Shown here: one piece after another, positions 26,176 through 38,438 of the stretch
How positions within the stretch are numbered: position 1 is the stretch's first letter
Layout: every line of letters begins with the position of its first letter
Made by a program: the position numbers and the translations under genes
Assembly (NCBI GenBank): GCA_015075725.1
Contig: JABTTV010000001.1
Coordinates: forward strand, 2,232,001-2,296,000
From: Anaerolineales bacterium
Lineage (GTDB): Bacteria; Chloroflexota; Anaerolineae; Anaerolineales; Villigracilaceae
Length of the DNA: 64,000 nucleotides
Direction of reading: 5' to 3'
The notes under the pieces: generated by a model
Told to the model about the DNA's origin: nothing
The model's input: the letters and a program-made list of their open reading frames with translations, nothing else
Database searches by the model: none

Positions 26176-27135
26176 ATGTATAAAGACAAAACAATTGCTG
26201 TAGTTGTGCCTGCATACCAAGAAGAATTGCTGATAGGGCGCGTAATTGAAACGATGCCGGAATTTGTTGATAAAATTGTGATTGTTGATGACTTTAGTTC
26301 TGATAATACTGTTTCCATTGTAAATAGTCATCTGGATAAACTTCCAAAGAAAATCGTGCTTATTCGCCATGAAGTAAATCAGGGCGTGGGAGGTGCGATT
26401 GCCACAGGTTATAAATGGTGCCGCGATCATGGTTTCGATGTTGCAGTTGTGATGGCGGGCGATGCTCAAATGGACCCTAAAGACTTACCCGCAATACTCG
26501 ATCCCGTAGTCGCCGGAATTGTCGATTTTTCCAAAGGTAATAGACTTATTACAGGTGATGCATGGGAAAAAATACCAAAGGTTCGCTATTTGGGTAACTC
26601 AGTTTTATCATTACTGACTAAAATTGCATCTGGTTATTGGCATGTTGCCGATTCGCAAACCGGTTACACGGCTATTAATAAACGAGCTTTGAAGTTAATT
26701 GATTGGAATAAGATGTATAAGCGGTATGGGCAACCGAATGATTTGCTTGTTCGGTTGAATATTTATAATCTGCGAGTATGTGATGTGGCAGTTACTCCAG
26801 TTTATAATATTGGTGAGAAAAGCGGTATTAAACCATTTCGAATTATCCCCAAGATGTCCGCCCTGCTTTTTAAGCTATTTCTGTATCGTATGACCCAAAA
26901 GTATATTATTCGCGATTTTCACCCGCTGATATTTTTCTATTTTGCCGGATTTCTTTTCTTTATCTTGGATTCATTATTTCTTATTCGTTTTTTTATTCTA
27001 TGGACGCGTTCAGGCAACATTCCTGAGATAACAGCACTTTCAATAGTATTTTGCACTTTTTCCAGCATGTTGTTCACCCTTTTTGCAATGTTGTTTGACA
27101 TGGAATACAATCGCTCACTGGGAAAAGATTGGTGA
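26176..27135 (+). CDS. Family 2 glycosyltransferase, polyprenyl-phosphate type
   Basis: 319 residues. GT-A core: TIAVVVPAYQEELLIGRVIE, KIVIVDDFSSDNTVSIV, VNQGVGGAIATGYKWC, VAVVMAGDAQMDPKDLPAIL (DxD-like Asp). It resembles DPM1/dolichyl-phosphate mannosyltransferase relatives. Two C-terminal membrane helices (FFYFAGFLFFILDSLFLI; SSMLFTLFAMLFDMEY). It probably makes a polyprenyl-phosphate sugar donor that GT-C enzymes such as the next gene use outside the membrane. AGGAG precedes the start; low GC like its neighbours. Confidence 0.88.
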   Translation: MYKDKTIAVVVPAYQEELLIGRVIETMPEFVDKIVIVDDFSSDNTVSIVNSHLDKLPKKIVLIRHEVNQGVGGAIATGYKWCRDHGFDVAVVMAGDAQMDPKDLPAILDPVVAGIVDFSKGNRLITGDAWEKIPKVRYLGNSVLSLLTKIASGYWHVADSQTGYTAINKRALKLIDWNKMYKRYGQPNDLLVRLNIYNLRVCDVAVTPVYNIGEKSGIKPFRIIPKMSALLFKLFLYRMTQKYIIRDFHPLIFFYFAGFLFFILDSLFLIRFFILWTRSGNIPEITALSIVFCTFSSMLFTLFAMLFDMEYNRSLGKDW

Positions 27136-27185: not shown

Positions 27186-30100
27186 ATGCGACGTATAGAT
27201 AAGAAACATCTCCCTATATTCCTCATCTTATTCAGTGTCATATTGGTTCTCGGTACCATATCAATTTTATCCGCCCAATACGAAGAATCACAATACGAAG
27301 AACCGATTTACAAAGACCCACAGATCGAAGAACTGCAATACGAAGTAGAACAGTACGATGGGATGTATAAATATTCCATAGAGAGGGATTACAAAGCCCT
27401 TTTACGGCATTTTTCGGAAGAGAATCCTGGACGTGGAGTCTTAGATTATCCTGGAAATGAAACTTCTGATTATGCCAAATCCTATGCAATGTTTCTTAGC
27501 GCAGAGCTGTTACGGGCGCAGCGAGAGCCGGAATTTCACTTATCGGATATGGGGGAAAATGCAGGAAATTGGCTACTTGATAATGCAGATATCGATGGCG
27601 ATGGCGTAGTTGGATGGGGGCTTCCTGTAGAATGGGATGCTTATGGGGATGGGACGGTAAATCCTCCAAACACGATATACACCATTACTACTGCTATTGC
27701 AATCAATGGATTATTAGATTGGCTGGAGATGGATCCTGATGCCCCTGAAGAACGAATAATTACGACAGTTGATGCTGCGTTTGAGCCATTTATAGATCCA
27801 AAAGCTTTAACACAAGATGGGCTATTAATGTATTCTCTGTCAAGTAATGACCAAGCTTACAGTACATTTAACCCGGGGGCTTATATGGCTGGTCAGATGC
27901 AACGGTTCAGTAGCGTTCATTCCAATTCTGCAAAACGTGATCAATTGCGTTTTGTTTCAGATACGATTATGGAATCTTTGCTTGTCTATAAACAACTAGA
28001 TCAAAATGGGGGCTGGTATTGGAATTATAGTATAGATGAACATGTCCCGAACGATGCGACACATTCCATTTATATTATTGAGGGAATTTACCAGTATATA
28101 AGATATCAAGGATCATTGGCAAATCAATTTGATTGGGTTGCGATAAACAGGCATATTCTTCTATTTTATTCTCCCGAAGAACTGCAATTTAAGCGCTTTC
28201 CACAGGTTTTGAATTATTCATTTCCTGGACAGCCTCGTTTATATGAATTGGGTATGTTAATGTATTATATGGGGAAATTTGACCTGAAAGAAACTGGTGA
28301 TGCCTTATATGCCTTTTCAGCAACATACCGTTTACCGGATGGCACCTACGCTAAACTTCCAGTAAGTGAAGACGGTTCAGAAAACAAATTGGTCGTTAAT
28401 GAATATATGTCTTATTTACTATATGGATTTAGTTCGTTGATTAACCGTCCTGTTCCCGAAAATATACAATCCCTAAGGAGCGATTGGAATTTGTTGCTTG
28501 ACCCTGTTGCATTGCTACCAACTGATACAAACGAGAATATCCTTGTCCCTTTTTCTTATTTTGACGTGGAAGACTACAATATTGAGCTCCTGTTCAATGT
28601 TCGTTTGTTGAAGGGTGAGCTGGTAGTGAATAATACAAGAATTGCCCTGCCAGCACGGGTTTTACCAATTAAGATCCTCGAATGGAATAAGAAGAATTTG
28701 GTCATTTTTACACGTGCTCTTTGGTCGAATAAAATCCAAGTTTGGAAACTTGACATTGAATCGAAATATTTTCAATCAATTCCCATGCCAGATTATCTGG
28801 ATGAAGGTATGTTCCGGCAGGGGATTTTATTTAATGAGCATATTGTCTTTATTCTTTTTGACCCGATTGCGAAGACGAATTATATATACCGGATTATTCC
28901 GACTAATGAATCTGATCAATCACTCCAATTTGACGAAAATTATAAACAGGAGTATTTCATCAACGAGCAGCTGGGTTATCGACAGCAACCAAAAATATTA
29001 ATGACAAAATTTCAGGGACACCTAATCATTGCTTCCGACTCGATCGTTTACGATTATGATTATTCGCCTACTATCGAAAAAACTACTCTACAACGTTCCA
29101 CTGATCTCCCTAATCGATATAAATTACTTGAACTTTCCTCTGACGATATTGGTGTTTTTGCATTATATAAGGATATCGAATTCTCCTTTGACAAACCAAT
29201 TTCGAGAGATAATAGACCGTTTATACTATATGATGTTGCTAACAAAAAAATTTTCCTTGATGATTATAAAGGACGTGTACCTTATAATTTGCAAGTAATT
29301 GATGGACAAGCAACAATTCATTTTGTTGAATCGCAAGAAGATATAATTAAATTGTTTTTGCTAGACCTACAAAATATGCCCGCCTCAGGTCTGATGAGTG
29401 CCGGAGTAAATAACTTTGAGGGAGAGGTTATCTGGACTCAATCTTACTATTTGAATGCGATGATAGACATATTGAGTGCGAATGAAGATTATCATACGAT
29501 AGACCCTTTTAACCCTATCAGATCACAACTTAAACAACGCTTGGATTTTGAGATGGCATTAATTGATAGGATGATATTGGAGGGTCCTGGATTACTTTGT
29601 AAAACATTTACGGTAGATCGTACGCCAACCTTGCATGCTGTTCAGACCGGAAAGTTTCTATTATTGTTGAAACGGTACTTAACCCTTCCGAATGCAATTG
29701 AAATGAGTAGTTATGAGGAATTTCGTAAGAGAGTAATTAACTTGGATGGGCACATTGAGGTCTTTGCTCAAGCAGAATCTAGTAACCCTTGGTTGACTGA
29801 AGGTAGATATTACTTGATGTGGCCAAAAGGGTCACCGTTTTGGGCAGATGGCGTTGGTATCCCCTATAATCATCAAAATATGTGGGCGGCTGGTGTTTTA
29901 TATGGTGAAGATTTGAACGATTTACCGGATGACGACCTGAGACAGATCACCTATGATATTAGCTCACAAGTTTTGGATCTAGAGGGGTTTCGCAGGGTTA
30001 TTCCAAAACATAGTCATTGGTTTGCAAAATCTTCGGGATATTATCAATGGTATTATTGGTGGGGACCTGCAAAGGAGGGATGGGCTGAAGCTGATGACAT

Positions 30101-31892
30101 ATCGGTAAATACCCCGTCATGGCGCGGTGATGGTGATAACATTGCACTGCCTGTTTATAGGACTTTTGATGCAATCACTATCTTGATCGCAGGTAAACAT
30201 TTTAATAATTTTTTACCAACTGGCATCTTGGAATATTTTAGAAACGGGATCGAAAAAGGTGAACTGGAATTGTTTATAATTCCATATTTAGAACAATATG
30301 GCAAAATTCCCAATATTGACCAGGGATTAGCAATTAAGAATTTGCGCAGTGCCAGCCAGCCAGATATGCGAAATGCTGTCTGGGCTTATCGTTATCTTTC
30401 TTATAGTATTAATAGCCCGCTATATTCAGTAAGTTCGGAGACTAACTCTCAGATTCCAATGGTGGGCACCTTTATCTTGGATGTGGCACTTGTTTTATTA
30501 TGTGCTTTTTTGCTTAATGCCATATTGCGGATTGACAGGCTCATACCTTGGTTGATAGGGTTATACCTTTTTGTTTACGCTATAGTCGTATTGACTATAG
30601 TATTGAGCAGTCTGCTTTCGCTTCTAAATAGCAAAGCATTTTTCTTGTTATTCCATTGGTCGTTCTTGGTAATCCTTACATTAATTTGGTTATTGAGAGA
30701 TGCTCCCGATTTATTCATGCCATTACGGTTGCTCAACCTCAATCCTGCATCTTGGCTGCCTTCTTTCAAGCCACATTGGGATATTTGGATAGCGGGCGTA
30801 ATATGTGCTTTTGGTTTTGTTTTTATTGGATATTCAAATTTAGTCCTTCCACAATCTATCGACGATGTCCTCACTGCTCACCTTTCACGCATAGGTTACT
30901 GGCTGCAATTTGGCAATTTGAAGCCATGGCAGGCTGATACATATCAAATGGCACAGGTCATATATCCATTTAATGCCCAGGCTCAAATTTACTGGAGTTT
31001 ATTGTTCTTAAGGACGGATCAACTGGCGGGCTTTTCGCAATGGATTGCATTGCCGATCATGATATTGACCATTTATGGTTTTTGCCGGATGATGAAGATG
31101 GGTCGCAAGTGGGCGATAATGGCGTCTTTGACTGTATTTTCGCTGCCTAGCATATATTTACAGACTTTTAGCGCGATGACAGATCTGATCAGTGCTGTGT
31201 TGTTTGTTAGTATGCTTTATTTATTGTTATCAGGGTTGGAGAGCAGGCGATTGGAAATCTTGGGATTGTCAGGATTGGCTTTGGGGCTTTCCATTGGAAC
31301 CAAGCAGACCATCATCTTTGCTATTCCGGGTCTGATAATTGTTCTAATATATATTGTGATAATAAAGAAGAAAGCTGTGATTAAGTATTTATTACAATGG
31401 GCAGGAGCATCCTTTGCTTCGATTTCTATAACTGGTGCATATATTTATATAGCCAATTATTATTGGTGGGGAAGCCCTTTCGGTCCTCCAGCGACCTTTC
31501 AAGGATTTACAAATAGAGAAACAACTCTATCCGTATTTGATACTTTAATAAGGTTTTTATTGAATGCGAAAAGTCTGTTGGCGGCAATATTTCACCTTGA
31601 CCTGTTCAGTTGGAATTATTCAGTGGTAAATCCGAGTCCGGGACCTGTGTTTGGATTATTGATATTATTCACATTTATTTACATGGGATCAATTATTAGG
31701 ACAAGGCAAAAAAATGTACCTGCTTTTTCCTTATTTATTATTTCTGTTTTTTACGGTTTGACCCTGTTAGTTGTGCGTGAATATACAACTGCTTTGTTGC
31801 GATATCTTATTATCTCGTATGTGCTTTTAATACCGCTGGCATTTTCGGGTCTCTCAGTTTTTGCTGAAGAAAAATTTAAGACTGAGGAGTAG
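27186..31892 (+). CDS. 1568-residue fusion: large ectodomain plus GT-C-like membrane domain
   Basis: Signal-anchor helix at the start (IFLILFSVILVLGTISIL), then an acidic Glu/Tyr-rich stretch with YEE/YKD repeats (about 34-60). Residues about 60-1090 are soluble and should be extracytoplasmic; they contain helical-barrel-like parts (NAGNWLLDNADIDGDGVVGWG; WYWNYSIDEH; TEGRYYLMWPKGSPFWADG) reminiscent of epimerase or glycoside-hydrolase alpha/alpha folds, but I cannot name a family. From about residue 1098 to the end are some 12 membrane helices with a GT-C/ArnT-like loop LPQSIDDVLTAHLSRIGYW carrying paired acidic residues. It may both transfer and process a glycan. Ends four bases before the next gene. 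Very low GC. Confidence 0.7.
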   Translation: MRRIDKKHLPIFLILFSVILVLGTISILSAQYEESQYEEPIYKDPQIEELQYEVEQYDGMYKYSIERDYKALLRHFSEENPGRGVLDYPGNETSDYAKSYAMFLSAELLRAQREPEFHLSDMGENAGNWLLDNADIDGDGVVGWGLPVEWDAYGDGTVNPPNTIYTITTAIAINGLLDWLEMDPDAPEERIITTVDAAFEPFIDPKALTQDGLLMYSLSSNDQAYSTFNPGAYMAGQMQRFSSVHSNSAKRDQLRFVSDTIMESLLVYKQLDQNGGWYWNYSIDEHVPNDATHSIYIIEGIYQYIRYQGSLANQFDWVAINRHILLFYSPEELQFKRFPQVLNYSFPGQPRLYELGMLMYYMGKFDLKETGDALYAFSATYRLPDGTYAKLPVSEDGSENKLVVNEYMSYLLYGFSSLINRPVPENIQSLRSDWNLLLDPVALLPTDTNENILVPFSYFDVEDYNIELLFNVRLLKGELVVNNTRIALPARVLPIKILEWNKKNLVIFTRALWSNKIQVWKLDIESKYFQSIPMPDYLDEGMFRQGILFNEHIVFILFDPIAKTNYIYRIIPTNESDQSLQFDENYKQEYFINEQLGYRQQPKILMTKFQGHLIIASDSIVYDYDYSPTIEKTTLQRSTDLPNRYKLLELSSDDIGVFALYKDIEFSFDKPISRDNRPFILYDVANKKIFLDDYKGRVPYNLQVIDGQATIHFVESQEDIIKLFLLDLQNMPASGLMSAGVNNFEGEVIWTQSYYLNAMIDILSANEDYHTIDPFNPIRSQLKQRLDFEMALIDRMILEGPGLLCKTFTVDRTPTLHAVQTGKFLLLLKRYLTLPNAIEMSSYEEFRKRVINLDGHIEVFAQAESSNPWLTEGRYYLMWPKGSPFWADGVGIPYNHQNMWAAGVLYGEDLNDLPDDDLRQITYDISSQVLDLEGFRRVIPKHSHWFAKSSGYYQWYYWWGPAKEGWAEADDISVNTPSWRGDGDNIALPVYRTFDAITILIAGKHFNNFLPTGILEYFRNGIEKGELELFIIPYLEQYGKIPNIDQGLAIKNLRSASQPDMRNAVWAYRYLSYSINSPLYSVSSETNSQIPMVGTFILDVALVLLCAFLLNAILRIDRLIPWLIGLYLFVYAIVVLTIVLSSLLSLLNSKAFFLLFHWSFLVILTLIWLLRDAPDLFMPLRLLNLNPASWLPSFKPHWDIWIAGVICAFGFVFIGYSNLVLPQSIDDVLTAHLSRIGYWLQFGNLKPWQADTYQMAQVIYPFNAQAQIYWSLLFLRTDQLAGFSQWIALPIMILTIYGFCRMMKMGRKWAIMASLTVFSLPSIYLQTFSAMTDLISAVLFVSMLYLLLSGLESRRLEILGLSGLALGLSIGTKQTIIFAIPGLIIVLIYIVIIKKKAVIKYLLQWAGASFASISITGAYIYIANYYWWGSPFGPPATFQGFTNRETTLSVFDTLIRFLLNAKSLLAAIFHLDLFSWNYSVVNPSPGPVFGLLILFTFIYMGSIIRTRQKNVPAFSLFIISVFYGLTLLVVREYTTALLRYLIISYVLLIPLAFSGLSVFAEEKFKTEE

Positions 31893-31895
31893 CTC

Positions 31896-33224
31896 GTGTT
31901 ACAAAAGGTGCGTAAACTAGCAAGGGATACTATGGAGAAAAAAGACCTAAAATCCCTCCTCATAGGGATCCTTCTTGGATTTCCGATTGTGTTAAGTTTT
32001 TCTGGTCATTTCCTATTTTTTTGGTCGCGTAGTGATGTAGTTAAATATCTTATCTTTTTCGGATTGTTAATTTTGTCAGGAGTATTGATTGGTTTACTTC
32101 TTAATAAATCTTTGAGGACAAGGCCAAAACTGACTAATAATGAACTGGTGATATTTCTTATCTTGCTTTGTATGATTTTGGGATTTGGCTTGGTGTTTAG
32201 ATCAAGAATTCCTTTGCCCCTGTTGCCGCCAACAATGTACAACATGATTTTAACTATAAGTGGTGAAAATACAGATGCCACAAGTTATTCAAAACCTATA
32301 ATCGGAATAAGGATGCTGGAAGCAAAAAGCAACAGAGCTATTTCTCTTTCGACAATATCATGTGATGGTGATTTTCTTGAGGCTAAAAGGAATGCATATT
32401 ATTTTGAGTTAGGTTCTTCTGAAGGCAAATTGCGATGCTCCTTTCGGGGGAATGTGCGTGACGCTATTATATTTATTTTCTTAAAACCACAAAACGAGGG
32501 GAGGGTGGTCGAGACGGTTTTTCGTTCTGATGCAGGGATGACGACACAAGAAACGTTTTATGTTCAATATTCTAATAATCCAACGAAAAGTTATGGTGTG
32601 TTGTTACCACACACATACTTTAGTATTTTCTGTTTGTTGTTAGATATTATTTCATTCGCGATCATTTTATCTCTTTTAATTTATGTGTTCTTCCAAGAAA
32701 TAAGAAAATTAATACCGAGAGTATTTATTTTATTTCCCGCTATAACTATGTTGTATTTGATGATCTATCCATATTCCAGCGGATATATAATTGGTAAAGA
32801 TCGTACAGATTTTCAGTTATACAGGCTTCCTGAATACGAACGGATGATTCGGGATGTAGATCGTTATGTGCCCGAAGACGCTTCCATGGTGATTGTTTAT
32901 CCCGGGAAGTATCCCGTCTCGCCTTTATTTGGTCAAAATTACACGCGTCGCTTGTTGCCTCAATATCCTGCTCCAGAATCGATTTCTGCTGACTACTTAG
33001 TCAGCTTGGGTGCAGAATATCTACTTATGAGCGCGGAGTTATTTGAAAAAGATAAACTTGAGCCCGATGGACAACTTCATTTTGTTATTTATGGAGGAGG
33101 GGAAGTACTATACCCTAATTACTCACTGTATGGCATGCTAAAATCAGGACTTATAATCGTCGCATCTTGCGTAAAACAGCCTGATTGTTTGGTTAGATAT
33201 TATATATTTAGTGTACAGAGATAA
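31896..33224 (+). CDS. Unrecognised membrane protein
   Basis: 442 residues from GTG (GAGGAG upstream), three bases after the previous stop. Three helices near the N-terminus (about 20-110), an extracytoplasmic beta-rich region (about 125-225), two helices (about 230-290), then a soluble C-terminal part with YRLPEYERMIRDVDRYVPEDASMVIVYPG and ADYLVSLGAEYLLMSAE. The last region resembles the ligand-binding tail seen after GT-C domains, so it may be a partner of the preceding fusion protein. No family assigned. Confidence 0.7.
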   Translation: MLQKVRKLARDTMEKKDLKSLLIGILLGFPIVLSFSGHFLFFWSRSDVVKYLIFFGLLILSGVLIGLLLNKSLRTRPKLTNNELVIFLILLCMILGFGLVFRSRIPLPLLPPTMYNMILTISGENTDATSYSKPIIGIRMLEAKSNRAISLSTISCDGDFLEAKRNAYYFELGSSEGKLRCSFRGNVRDAIIFIFLKPQNEGRVVETVFRSDAGMTTQETFYVQYSNNPTKSYGVLLPHTYFSIFCLLLDIISFAIILSLLIYVFFQEIRKLIPRVFILFPAITMLYLMIYPYSSGYIIGKDRTDFQLYRLPEYERMIRDVDRYVPEDASMVIVYPGKYPVSPLFGQNYTRRLLPQYPAPESISADYLVSLGAEYLLMSAELFEKDKLEPDGQLHFVIYGGGEVLYPNYSLYGMLKSGLIIVASCVKQPDCLVRYYIFSVQR

Positions 33225-33269
33225 TCCAAACGCGCTTTATATAAAAATACTTGCATTAAGGAGTTAAAA

Positions 33270-35318
33270 ATGTGCGGAATATTTGGCGTAATTGCTCGAC
33301 CCGATCCTGAGCTTTCAGTTTCAAACGTTAAAATGGTAATGGATAAACTGTTTTTGCTTTCCGAGTCTCGAGGAAAAGAAGCAGCAGGTATAGCTTATAT
33401 AAATCCTGATTCTATTTATGTTGCGAAATATGCAGAAACAGCTTCCCAAGTGATAAAACGAAAGACCTACAAAGATATTTTTGATCGCAACACATCCGCC
33501 GAAAGTATCCATGGAAGTATTAAGGGAGGATTTCCTATTTGTATGATGGGCCATTCTCGCCTTGTGACCAATGGCGGACAGCAATTTCATGCTAATAACC
33601 AGCCAGCCATTGCATGCGGAATAGTGGCGATTCATAATGGGATCATTACCAACTCCAATGATTTATGGCTTCGATACCCTCACCTGGAAAAATCTACCCA
33701 ATTGGATACAGAAGTATTTTTGGCGATGCTTCGTGATAAGTTAAGACAAACTGAAAGTCTGACGGAAGCCGTCAGTTCGACCTACATGGATGTAGAAGGA
33801 GTTGCATCCATAATTGCCTATTTTGAGGATATAAATTGTGTACTTCTATCGACAAATAACGGATCGTTGTATTTTGGAACGAACCGAGAGAAAGGAATTT
33901 ACGTTTTTGCTTCTGAAAAATATATTTTGACTAGCTTTGCGAAATCTAGGGGGATTCCAGTCTCAATGCAGAATCTGATTGTTCGCCAGGTTGAACCCGG
34001 TCAGGGAATAGTCATCTCCTTGGATACCCTGAGTTTAGAGAGTTTTCGGTTCGATCAAAATCGACCCATAGAAATCTCCTTGGCTCCATTGGAAACTCCA
34101 AGGAAAATCGTGGATCTCTCTCTTCCTGAGCATTTAGGCACCAATGAATTAAAAATGCCGGGAGAAGGTCCATATATCCTGCCGCCTAATTTTATTGATG
34201 AATTTCCAAAGAATATAAATGCGATAAATTCTCTCCGCCGCTGTTCAAAATGTATTTTGCCTGAAACAATGCCTTTCATTGAGTTCGATAATGATGGGGT
34301 TTGTAATTATTGTCGCAGCTATCAACCTATCACCTATTTAGGATTGGAAGCATTGCAAGAAAAATTAGTGCCATATAGAAAAACGAATGGTGACCCCGAT
34401 TGTTTGGTCACTTTTAGTGGCGGACGCGATTCCAGTTATGCTGTTCACATTCTAAAGAATTTGCTGGGAATGCGCCCGGTTACTTATACTTATGATTGGG
34501 GAATGATCACAGATCTTGGGCGTCGAAATCAAATGCGCATATGTGGGAAACTTGGGCTTGAAAATATACTAGTCTCTGCAGATATTGGGCGCAAAAGGGA
34601 AAATATTAAAAAAAATATATTGGCATGGTTAAAAACCCCGGATCTTGGAACAATCCCACTATTTATGGCGGGAGATAAACAATATTTTTATTACGCCAAC
34701 AAGGTTGGAGAGCAAACGAATAGCAAACTTATTGTTCTTGGTGAGAACCTGCTAGAAACCACTCGGTTTAAATCAGGCTTTTGTGGAATCGAACCTCAAT
34801 TTGAGGAAAGTCATACTTATACACTTTCCTTTGCAAACAAATTTAAATTAGCTATGTATTATGCTAGACAGTATTCTATAAATCCCGCCTATATTAATTC
34901 TTCGCTTATTGACACGATTGGTGCATATATATCCTATTATTTTATTCCACATAATTATCTGAATATATATCAGTATATTAAGTGGGATGAACGGGAAATT
35001 GATCGTACCCTTATTGAAGTTTATGACTGGGAAACGGCTAAGGATACAAAAACGACATGGCGGATTGGGGATGGAACAGCATCTTTTTATAACTATATTT
35101 ATTTCACAATGGCTGGTTTTACAGAAAACGATACATTTAGAAGCAACCAAATTCGTGAAGGTATGTTGACTCGGGAAGAGGCGCTAGGAAAAATAGAAAC
35201 GGATAATCAACCGAGATATGAGTCCATCCAATGGTACTGCGATATCATAGGGATTGACTTCGATACAACATTACAAAAGATAAACCTTGCCCCCAAGCTT
35301 TATCAGATTTATCTTTGA
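33270..35318 (+). CDS. Class II glutaminase fused to WbpG-like sugar amidotransferase
   Basis: 682 residues with AAGGAG upstream. Residues 1-260: Ntn glutamine amidotransferase (MCGIFGVIARPDPE, so Cys2 is the nucleophile; GHSRLVTNGGQQFHANNQPA; AIHNGIITN). Residues 320-620: a zinc-type C-x2-C pair (CSKC at 325-328, CNYC at 345-348) and a PP-loop SGGRDSS at 383-389, then GMITDLGRRNQMRICGKLG and LVLGENLLETTRF-like residues, as in the N-acetyl sugar amidotransferase WbpG/PseA group, which makes acetamidino sugars. In those systems ammonia normally comes from separate HisH/HisF-like partners; here the glutaminase is built in. The likely product is an amidated nucleotide or lipid-linked sugar for the surface glycan. 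Confidence 0.88.
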   Translation: MCGIFGVIARPDPELSVSNVKMVMDKLFLLSESRGKEAAGIAYINPDSIYVAKYAETASQVIKRKTYKDIFDRNTSAESIHGSIKGGFPICMMGHSRLVTNGGQQFHANNQPAIACGIVAIHNGIITNSNDLWLRYPHLEKSTQLDTEVFLAMLRDKLRQTESLTEAVSSTYMDVEGVASIIAYFEDINCVLLSTNNGSLYFGTNREKGIYVFASEKYILTSFAKSRGIPVSMQNLIVRQVEPGQGIVISLDTLSLESFRFDQNRPIEISLAPLETPRKIVDLSLPEHLGTNELKMPGEGPYILPPNFIDEFPKNINAINSLRRCSKCILPETMPFIEFDNDGVCNYCRSYQPITYLGLEALQEKLVPYRKTNGDPDCLVTFSGGRDSSYAVHILKNLLGMRPVTYTYDWGMITDLGRRNQMRICGKLGLENILVSADIGRKRENIKKNILAWLKTPDLGTIPLFMAGDKQYFYYANKVGEQTNSKLIVLGENLLETTRFKSGFCGIEPQFEESHTYTLSFANKFKLAMYYARQYSINPAYINSSLIDTIGAYISYYFIPHNYLNIYQYIKWDEREIDRTLIEVYDWETAKDTKTTWRIGDGTASFYNYIYFTMAGFTENDTFRSNQIREGMLTREEALGKIETDNQPRYESIQWYCDIIGIDFDTTLQKINLAPKLYQIYL

Positions 35319-35481: not shown

Positions 35482-36771
35482 ATGAATTACTTATCATCCA
35501 TTCTTGCTCGCTCTGGCGTCTCAGAAAAAATTTCAACAAATGTTATGTGGAACATTGCCAGTTATGGGATTATAGCAGTGATTGGACTGCTATTAAACTT
35601 CGTTATAGCGTTTTACTATGATACAGCAGTCTTGGGGGTTTTTAATCAAGTCTTTGCATATTATATTTTCCTTTCGCAATTAGCTGTAGGAGGGGTTCAT
35701 CTGTCAATGTTGAAGGCAGTTGCTCAATCTCACAATGATGAAGATCGGGTAATTAAACTTTTTACCTCTGGCATGATACTTACATTATTAACTTCTCTAT
35801 TTGTTTCATTGATCACTTATTTGTTAAAAGAATTTTTAGGAGAAATATTAAGGAGTCAGGACGTAAGTGTCGGAGTAGGATATATTGTTCCGGGGTTGTT
35901 ATTTTTCTCTTTGAATAAGACGATGCTTGCACTTATTAATGGGTTGAACCAAATGAAAGATTACGCGATCTTTCAAGCCCTGCGATATATCTTTTTCCTG
36001 CTTAGTATTTCCTGTCTGGTTGCATTGTCTTTCCCAGGAAATGTGCTTCCTGTAATATTTTCATTGTCAGAGGGTGCTTTGTTCTTATTGCTTTTGATAA
36101 AAACCTATAAACATCTCGATATTAATGGTTCTTGGTTATACAAAGACTTGTATTATTCTCATGCTTTATTTGGTCTGAAAGCTGCTGGCGGAAATTTGCT
36201 TTTGGACATCAACACGCGAGTTGACGTCATAGTTTTGGGTTATTTTGCCTCCGACCGAATAGTGGGTATTTATAGTATTGCAGCTTTAGTCGTTGAAGGG
36301 TTCTGCCAGCTGCCGGTTGTATTAAGGGCTAATGTTAATCCGTTAATTACTCAGGGTTTCTACAATAAAAATAGACAGGACTTTCAAAAATTATTAATAA
36401 AGATTAGAAATTTATCCTTCCTTGTTCTTAGCCCTGTTGGGATAATTATTGCATTGGCTTTTCCTTTGCTATTTCTAATATGGTCCGACCCAGACCTCAT
36501 AGCTTCCTGGAAACCATTGGTTATTATCATGGTCGGTGTTCTAATGAGCGTCGGATACTTACCTTTGCTCACAATTTTTAATCAAACTGGCCATCCCGCA
36601 AGTCAAACTATATTAATTTTTGTAATTTTTCTAACAAATTTAATTTTGAATATTCTTTTAGTGCCATTATATGGTTTAATAGGATCGGCAATAGCAACTG
36701 GATTAACATTTGCGTTACAGGGGTTATATATTCGTTGGCTTGTTTTTCGAATAATAAAATCAAAAATTTAG
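35482..36771 (+). CDS. Polysaccharide flippase, Wzx/MATE-like (first of two)
   Basis: 429 residues with about 12-14 hydrophobic helices across the whole length and no large soluble part. The N-terminus VMWNIASYGIIAVIGLLLNFVIAFYYDTAVLG and the GLKAAGGNLLLDINTRVDVIVLG segment are typical of polysaccharide_synt/RfbX-family lipid-linked oligosaccharide flippases. It should move undecaprenyl-linked repeat units outward. No ribosome site is evident; TTTATATG lies right at the ATG. Confidence 0.85.
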   Translation: MNYLSSILARSGVSEKISTNVMWNIASYGIIAVIGLLLNFVIAFYYDTAVLGVFNQVFAYYIFLSQLAVGGVHLSMLKAVAQSHNDEDRVIKLFTSGMILTLLTSLFVSLITYLLKEFLGEILRSQDVSVGVGYIVPGLLFFSLNKTMLALINGLNQMKDYAIFQALRYIFFLLSISCLVALSFPGNVLPVIFSLSEGALFLLLLIKTYKHLDINGSWLYKDLYYSHALFGLKAAGGNLLLDINTRVDVIVLGYFASDRIVGIYSIAALVVEGFCQLPVVLRANVNPLITQGFYNKNRQDFQKLLIKIRNLSFLVLSPVGIIIALAFPLLFLIWSDPDLIASWKPLVIIMVGVLMSVGYLPLLTIFNQTGHPASQTILIFVIFLTNLILNILLVPLYGLIGSAIATGLTFALQGLYIRWLVFRIIKSKI

Positions 36772-36998: not shown

Positions 36999-38438
36999 AT
37001 GATAAGAGAATTTATCAAGTCCAGTTCGGTGTATTCAATTCCATCATTTATATCTCAGGGACTCTCGTTTCTATTAATACCCATATACACCAGAATTCTA
37101 AGTCCCTCAGATTACGGTTTTCTCGATCTCGTGATCGTTTTTGCTACATTGGTGAACCTCACTATCCCCCTCCAGATTTCTCAAGGCCTGGCTTATTTTT
37201 ATGGAAAAGAAAATGTTCTAGAACGTAAAAAGAAATATTCATCTTCTGCTTTGTGGTTCACGATTGCCTCCTATAGTTGTTTTGTTTTGTTGTTTGTTTT
37301 TCAAGCAGATCAAATTTCCATAATAATAATGGGAAGCCGGGCTTGGCAGACCTCTGCCCAATTAGGGATTCTCTACATTTGGAGTAATGGTATATATTTT
37401 CTTGTGCAAAATCAATTCCGTTGGGAATTGCGGAGCAGACAATATGTAGTGGTGAACCTGATAATGAACATAGTGACTACAGGAGCTTCATTGTGGTTGG
37501 CATTTGGATGCGAAATGGGGTTAGAAGGTGTGATTATAGGTAAGTTTATAGGGAACTTGGTTGGTATTGGGTTTTCAATATATTGGTTGCGTGAGAGTTA
37601 TCTTTTTCAAATTGACATCAAGATCCTTCAAGAATTACTTGTCTTCTCTTTGCCATTAGTAATAGCTGGAATTTCTGTCTGGGCTAATCTCTATATAGAC
37701 CGTTTGATGATTAATGCTATTCTTACTATAAAAGAGGTTGGTATTTACGGCATCGGAAATCGTTTTTCCAATTTGGCATCCACAGCGATGATCGGTTTTC
37801 AGCTTGCTCTACCACCACTTATTTACAATCATTATCAAGCCGAGGAGACACCTAGGCATATCTCGAAAATCCTGAATGTATATCTTGCTTTTGCTTTAAC
37901 TATATTTATGATCCTGGCTCTTTTTATTAATGACATCTTGCGATTAATGACAACTAAACCGTTCTATGGTGCTGCAGATTTGATAATTTATCTTGTCCCT
38001 GCCGCTTTTTTGGGACAAATGTATATTTTTTCCCCTGGCTTAGTAATTTCTAAAAAGACAAATATGATTGGCTATATTAACTTAGGTGGTGCAATAATCA
38101 ACCTTGGATTAAACCTTTTCCTAATCCCTTATTTCGGTGTTAAGGGCGCAGCTATCGCAACTCTTCTGAGCAATTTTTTCATATTTATAGCCCTCATGAG
38201 CTTAGGTCAGAAGTATTATCGAATACCCTATGAATGGCGTTCGGTTATCGTAATGGTGGCAACTGCCAGCATTATAATTGTCACTATTCCTAATTTACTA
38301 CCGGCCGTGTATTTGATGGCTCTTGTGATAAAACTCCTTGGGATTGGATTATTCATATTTGCATTGAATATATTCAAGGTAATAAATTTTAAAACAATTA
38401 AAAATGAACTCCATTTACTGATTACCAAACAATTCTAG
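36999..38438 (+). CDS. Polysaccharide flippase, Wzx/MATE-like (second of two)
   Basis: 479 residues, about 14 helices. SVYSIPSFISQGLSFLLIPIYTRILSPSDYGFLDLVIVFATL is the canonical flippase N-terminus (quoted in pieces: TRILSPSDYGFLDL). Later GIYGIGNRFSNLAS and IINLGLNLFLIPYFGVKGAAIATLLSNF match oligosaccharide flippases more strongly than the first copy. Two adjacent flippases may serve two glycans. The last clearly AT-rich gene before composition returns to the flanking level. Confidence 0.9.
   Translation: MIREFIKSSSVYSIPSFISQGLSFLLIPIYTRILSPSDYGFLDLVIVFATLVNLTIPLQISQGLAYFYGKENVLERKKKYSSSALWFTIASYSCFVLLFVFQADQISIIIMGSRAWQTSAQLGILYIWSNGIYFLVQNQFRWELRSRQYVVVNLIMNIVTTGASLWLAFGCEMGLEGVIIGKFIGNLVGIGFSIYWLRESYLFQIDIKILQELLVFSLPLVIAGISVWANLYIDRLMINAILTIKEVGIYGIGNRFSNLASTAMIGFQLALPPLIYNHYQAEETPRHISKILNVYLAFALTIFMILALFINDILRLMTTKPFYGAADLIIYLVPAAFLGQMYIFSPGLVISKKTNMIGYINLGGAIINLGLNLFLIPYFGVKGAAIATLLSNFFIFIALMSLGQKYYRIPYEWRSVIVMVATASIIIVTIPNLLPAVYLMALVIKLLGIGLFIFALNIFKVINFKTIKNELHLLITKQF

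Follow-up and report, generated by a model that had tools for sequence, protein, structure and literature searches.

Does the window, a 64,000-nt stretch of the genome of an Anaerolineales bacterium (4.79 Mb, 97% complete), encode a sugar amidotransferase that carries its own glutaminase? A preliminary description of this DNA had placed a class II glutaminase ahead of a WbpG-like synthetase half in one chain, and this is borne out by the reading frame, by family matches and by all 75 aligned homologues. The frame is unbroken on the + strand from the ATG at 33270 to the TGA at 35318, and the deduced protein starts with MCGIFG. Scans for promoters and terminators around the gene gave results near chance. 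The gene, its start signal and its domains are:

33270..35318, + strand, stop included: fused class II glutaminase/NASAT-like amidotransferase of 682 aa (open reading frame; family and structure matches)
33258..33263, + strand: Shine-Dalgarno AAGGAG, six bases 5' of the ATG (sequence)
33270..34073, + strand: class II (Ntn) glutaminase domain, about aa 1-268 (GATase_6, GlmS and PurF matches; VIA-align)
34074..34226, + strand: linker of variable length, about aa 269-319, with a helix at 306-320 (alignment and model)
34227..35315, + strand: NASAT-like PP-loop synthetase domain, about aa 320-682 (TIGR03573 match; 8WEX structural alignment)

Among 84,980 species genomes scanned, at least 263 relatives were found, of which the best 80 were kept; in these best 80, glutaminase and synthetase lie in one frame, and contig ends truncate two of the loci. 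All 75 sequences of the alignment set (homologues 38-56% identical to the window protein) have the order glutaminase, tetracysteine, PP-loop, and every one is matched by both the N-acetyl sugar amidotransferase (NASAT) model and the glutaminase models. Because the same order recurs in 75/75 homologues, the fusion reflects neither chance nor an assembly error. We found nothing in favour of two neighbouring genes having been joined by an assembly or frame error, and the same fusion occurs in about 80 loci, isolates and plasmids included, leaving this explanation a negligible probability. The distances of the two halves are correlated among homologues (r 0.64, with 0 of 2000 permutations as high).

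The first half contains a GATase_6 match at aa 91-216 (E 1.7e-7; 31.8 bits against a Pfam cut-off of 27), and the GlmS (E 2e-15) and PurF (E 2.4e-12) models both cover aa 1-225 of the fused protein. Its predicted active-site residues are:

33273..33275, + strand: Cys2, predicted glutaminase nucleophile after Met removal (invariant, 75/75)
33558..33560, + strand: Arg97, predicted to bind the carboxylate of glutamine, as the counterpart of Arg in GlmS HTR (invariant, 75/75; GlmS alignment)
33636..33641, + strand: Asn123-Gly124 (HNG), predicted oxyanion hole (invariant, 75/75; aligned to GlmS HNG)
33705..33707, + strand: Asp146 (DTEV), predicted glutamine amino-group binder (invariant, 75/75; aligned to GlmS DTEV)

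The Cys nucleophile with its Arg, Asn-Gly and Asp partners, the family match and the fold all identify the domain as a class II (Ntn) amidotransferase domain. Some fused homologues start with MCGL, MCGV or MCGII, or follow another start codon.

The second half matches TIGR03573 (WbuX/N-acetyl sugar amidotransferase) over aa 324-663 (E 1.1e-37) with 130.2 bits, below the 203.2-bit cut-off, and the sequence of PDB 8WEX, a Legionella NASAT, over aa 336-647 (E 7e-14). Hallmarks of the NASAT family are a zinc-binding tetracysteine, CxxC-Xn-[GN]xCxxC, and an SGGxDS PP-loop, and ATP to AMP chemistry has been proposed (PMC10607449). Residues G343-V344-C345 and C348 of the fused protein fit the tetracysteine motif, and the conserved elements of this half are:

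34242..34313, + strand: tetracysteine C325-x2-C328 ... C345-x2-C348, the zinc site in 8WEX (invariant, 75/75)
34416..34433, + strand: PP-loop SGGRDS, aa 383-388 (SGGRDSS, 383-389), with S, G, G, D and S invariant in 75/75
35058..35075, + strand: family-specific motif WRIGDG, aa 597-602, with W597, R598, D601 and G602 invariant and I599 and G600 conserved in at least 90% of fused proteins

Conservation common to fused and classical proteins comprises the tetracysteine, the PP-loop and a few core residues, whereas other positions, R386, E574, R598-G602 and E619 among them, are constant in fused proteins alone; R598, I599, D601 and G602 are not conserved in classical NASATs. At the fourth PP-loop position, Arg typifies the fused family and K or V occurs in most classical NASATs, and some fused homologues have SGGLDS. 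Scores against TIGR03573 range from 98 to 158 bits for the fused proteins of 50 genomes, as compared with mostly >203 for classical NASATs. A tree of 129 synthetase domains, built by a quick method and with the L089, L126, L212 and L120 rows counted as fused, resolves the fused proteins as a single group with strong support, which sits on a long branch separately from the SGGKDS and SGGVDS classical types. Because of the sub-cut-off scores, the separate grouping and the residues conserved only in fused proteins, we regard the protein, as judged from its sequence, as NASAT-like in plan and do not assign it to TIGR03573. The earlier label 'WbpG-type' thus holds for the NASAT-like fold, tetracysteine and PP-loop, but not as strict membership, the fused proteins being a sub-cut-off sister clade with residues of its own.

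An AlphaFold2 model of the 682-aa protein, computed from the homologue alignment, was confident as one unit (pLDDT 92.6, pTM 0.92). VIA-align of this predicted model matched the first half to PurF and GlmS/GFAT (Z about 25) and the second half to 8WEX (Z 23.6, 322 residues, rmsd 4.3), and Foldseek agreed. Among the structural matches listed, those of the first half were class II (Ntn) glutaminase-type proteins, the best of the second half was 8WEX, and no entry spanned both folds. The preliminary description had named modelling as a check on the essential residues, and both active sites are intact in 75/75 and both folds were recovered in the confident model.

Public records call the fused protein '7-cyano-7-deazaguanine synthase', 'glucosamine 6-phosphate synthetase' or 'hypothetical protein', which would favour a misread ordinary GlmS, AsnB or QueC. 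However, no full enzyme model reaches its cut-off in the window protein, and the alignment to 8WEX extends over 322 C-terminal residues, making an ordinary enzyme of these kinds very improbable. Each candidate was also rejected individually. The GlmS match is limited to aa 1-225, with 56 bits against a cut-off of 381 and the isomerase half unmatched; PF00733 (Asn_synthase) was found in none of the 75 members at E 1e-3 and was detected in an AsnB control from the same genome; and QueC gave a weak match in 2/75 members (best E 4.5e-4) and none for the window protein. The public-record naming of the family is wrong, and NCBIfam and Pfam contain no model dedicated to it. As had been anticipated, the plan is that of AsnB with a different, NASAT-like synthetase half.

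If the built-in glutaminase supplies the ammonia, as we propose below, HisH and HisF would not be needed. Classical WbuX/HisF2/HisH clusters are on record (PMC11340318). HisH and/or HisF were found nearby for 31/41 classical NASATs and for 5/82 fused proteins (Fisher 2e-15, on related rows), in flanks of mostly 1.5 kb for the classical and up to 10 kb for the fused genes; such linkage is usual for NASATs without being a strict part of their definition. The preliminary description took WbpG/PseA-type enzymes to depend on separate glutaminase partners; ten of the 41 classical NASATs had neither HisH nor HisF within the flanks searched. In three of the five fused loci with HisH/HisF (L073, L076 and L124), a classical NASAT is present as well; the fourth (L123) has one elsewhere on its contig, and the fifth (L125) has HisH only. 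Neither gene occurs within 10 kb of the fused gene of the window. The window's genome (G000) was previously expected to have no HisH/HisF-like partner genes, and taken literally this fails: a WbpG-HisF-HisH set lies at C1:1374708-1377088, about 890 kb from the fused gene, followed by an AsnB-like gene (whole stretch, C1:1374594-1378977). This HisH/HisF set lies beside its own, classical WbpG, so that the expectation fails in the letter and not in spirit. No NASAT above the TIGR03573 cut-off was found in 35/50 genomes with the fusion, many of these genomes being incomplete bins.

Two 393-aa proteins lacking the glutaminase (L046:17536-18717 in G085 and L178:9749-10930 in G428) nest inside the fused group of the tree, which is most simply explained, as far as the sequences tell, by loss of the glutaminase after fusion. 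No unfused glutaminase was seen beside them (L046/L047 and L178), and each adjoins an NAD(P)-binding oxidoreductase-like gene. Because such members exist, the glutaminase is not always required. Together with the HisH in the window's genome, they give some room to a degenerate or regulatory glutaminase half in an enzyme that uses free ammonia or a shared HisH; yet the glutaminase residues examined show no variation in any of the 75 members and HisH/HisF are seldom linked, and we consider this improbable.

The fusion occurs in about 20 phylum-level groups among the best 80 of at least 263 relatives, so that rarity of the domain order, as implied by the preliminary description, is not borne out. 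It is present in isolates of Legionella londiniensis, Pseudomonas abietaniphila, Geomonas paludis, Polaribacter porphyrae and Nocardioides aequoreus, and on plasmids of Solidesulfovibrio and Agrobacterium. Relatives from Anaerolineales include L070 (a contig of G007) and L118 (G074), and in a 400-genome sample of the window's phylum, 17 genomes had NASAT-like proteins and two had the fusion. No full-length homologue was found in 50,697 phage records. Because phyla are intermixed in the synthetase tree (the phylum label changes 32 times, where 19 would be the minimum), its topology suggests transfer of the fused gene between lineages. We found no description of the fusion in the open-access literature, a search that covered subscription journals thinly, so that absence is not proof. 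The order is thus common, one half of what had been thought to count against its novelty, and a characterization, the other half, was not found. The fused form is a widespread, apparently uncharacterized variant of NASAT-like amidotransferases.

What might such an enzyme amidate? In the window, the fused gene lies in a polysaccharide region that includes:

26176..27135, + strand: family 2 glycosyltransferase, upstream in the same polysaccharide region (PF00535, 2.1e-20)
35482..36771, + strand: Wzx-type flippase, directly downstream of the fused gene (PF01943, 1.1e-12)
36999..38438, + strand: second Wzx-type flippase (PF13440, 3.4e-17)

Further glycosyltransferase-like genes follow downstream. 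Directly upstream of the fused gene is a 442-aa membrane protein (31896-33224) without a Pfam match, preceded by a 1568-aa membrane protein (27186-31892) whose C-terminal part is PMT_2 mannosyltransferase-like, just below the cut-off, and whose long N-terminal part gave no match in a Pfam search. Across 84 loci, neighbours include GT2 (47), Wzx (36), DegT aminotransferase (18), WecB (13), AsnB (12), Gfo/Idh (10) and NDP-sugar dehydrogenase (9) genes, named by family search for L061 and L047 and otherwise judged from sequence; a few neighbours are duplicates from one genome. One arrangement recurs in Rhodospirillaceae-type loci (L102, L105, L106, L116 and L117): Wzx follows the fused gene, and on its other side lies an oppositely oriented gene for a membrane protein of about 615 aa.

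The closest relative (L061, 56%) adjoins NDP-sugar dehydrogenase, Gfo/Idh-acetyltransferase, aminotransferase and WecB genes, which we take to be the set expected for 2,3-diacetamido-2,3-dideoxy-hexuronic acids, and the glutaminase-less relative in G085 is also near such a gene set. Sugars of this kind are the type of substrate that WbpG uses, and in P. aeruginosa O5, 2,3-diacetamido-uronic acids are the WbpG product type (PMC10607449). This pathway is not among the genes near the window's fused gene, and the complete set is missing at most loci; the best WbpB-like gene of the window's genome is near the classical WbpG set and not near the fused gene. No NeuB-type motif occurs in the DNA of any locus compared, leaving a nonulosonic acid acceptor without support.

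The domain order, the intact residues of both active sites, the folds modelled for the two halves, the polysaccharide context and the weak HisH/HisF linkage make it probable that the protein is a single-chain, glutamine-hydrolysing, ATP-dependent amidotransferase for a surface-polysaccharide sugar, with ammonia passed internally; we infer from these observations its glutaminase activity, the transfer of ammonia, the use of ATP, and the acceptor and product. The Ntn domain, its Cys2 exposed once Met is removed, would convert glutamine to glutamate and ammonia, which would travel internally to the NASAT-like C-terminal half. The PP-loop of that half would use ATP, with release of AMP and PPi, for activation of a carbonyl oxygen in the sugar precursor, the likeliest acceptor being the N-acetyl amide of an acetamido-sugar nucleotide or of a lipid-linked sugar. 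Ammonia would then take the place of AMP, yielding an acetamidino group (or some other amide), and the amidated product would enter an exported surface polysaccharide.

The acceptor may differ from that of classical NASATs, given the differing conserved residues and sub-cut-off scores. The same two-step chemistry could act on a uronic acid carboxyl, producing a uronamide, or on another carbonyl; uronamide formation has been proposed for AsnB-like polysaccharide amidotransferases. The separate clade on its long branch, with 98-158 bits against the 203 cut-off, the family-specific R598-G602, E574, E619 and R386, and the scarcity of loci with a complete diacetamido-uronic acid pathway are consistent with such an acceptor. 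Nevertheless, AsnB-like genes in 12/84 loci may already cover uronamide formation there, and the core tetracysteine, PP-loop and fold are all as in 8WEX, so that we hold a uronic acid or other carbonyl acceptor to be rather unlikely. Broader still, and tentatively, the glutaminase-NASAT fusion may define a separate family that has been transferred widely among phyla and acts on an acceptor new to NASATs; many environmental bacteria would then have an undescribed nitrogen-containing sugar in their surface polysaccharides. If the single-chain amidotransferase reading is true, glutamine-dependent sugar amidation would have a one-gene route, as compared with three genes in the best-known systems, and the reaction would be easier to test with one purified protein. 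With a correct family label, amidated polysaccharides would become recognizable in many genomes, uncultured groups included.

Related arrangements were seen elsewhere. A 1479-aa NRPS-like protein of an Acidobacteriota genome (L214:2890-7329, G488), with condensation, adenylation and carrier domains, carries an inserted NASAT-like domain, with tetracysteine and SGGKDS PP-loop, which separates the adenylation core from the C-terminal subdomain of that core. Standalone NASAT-like PP-loop proteins of about 340 aa (L179:9751-10779, L181:9845-10867, L215:8030-9064 and L216:8970-10004) lie on long branches near this inserted domain, with AMP-ligase-like genes nearby in L179 and L181, and are possibly a carrier-linked amidation branch. 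Standalone class II glutaminases (L016:1327-2265, L032:1177-1935 and L182:8742-9572) adjoin a conserved gene of about 435 aa, which we presume may encode a COOH-NH2 ligase; none of the standalone glutaminases of G084, G091 and G282, nor a match in G169, is beside a NASAT. A 557-aa 'fused' classical NASAT (L198) was dismissed, its frame merely running upstream of the likely start.

Among known systems, NadE, a structural relative of 8WEX (PMC10607449), is a PP-loop synthetase reported with or without a glutaminase domain (PMC3376133); its glutaminase, unlike that of the fused protein, is nitrilase-like, and its substrate is deamido-NAD. Among solved structures, GlmS/GFAT and PurF come nearest to the glutaminase half (Z about 25), but the fused protein has neither a sugar isomerase nor a phosphoribosyltransferase half. 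AsnB and AsnB-like polysaccharide amidotransferases have the same succession of a Cys2 class II glutaminase and a PP-loop ATP pyrophosphatase synthetase, whereas the fused family has, instead of PF00733, a NASAT-like synthetase with a tetracysteine site. The TIGR03573 NASATs (WbpG, WbuX, PseA and LpNASAT, 8WEX) are alike in tetracysteine, SGGxDS, synthetase fold and surface-polysaccharide context; in contrast to them, the fused protein contains a class II glutaminase and a PP-loop Arg, scores below the cut-off, forms its own clade and is seldom linked to HisH/HisF.
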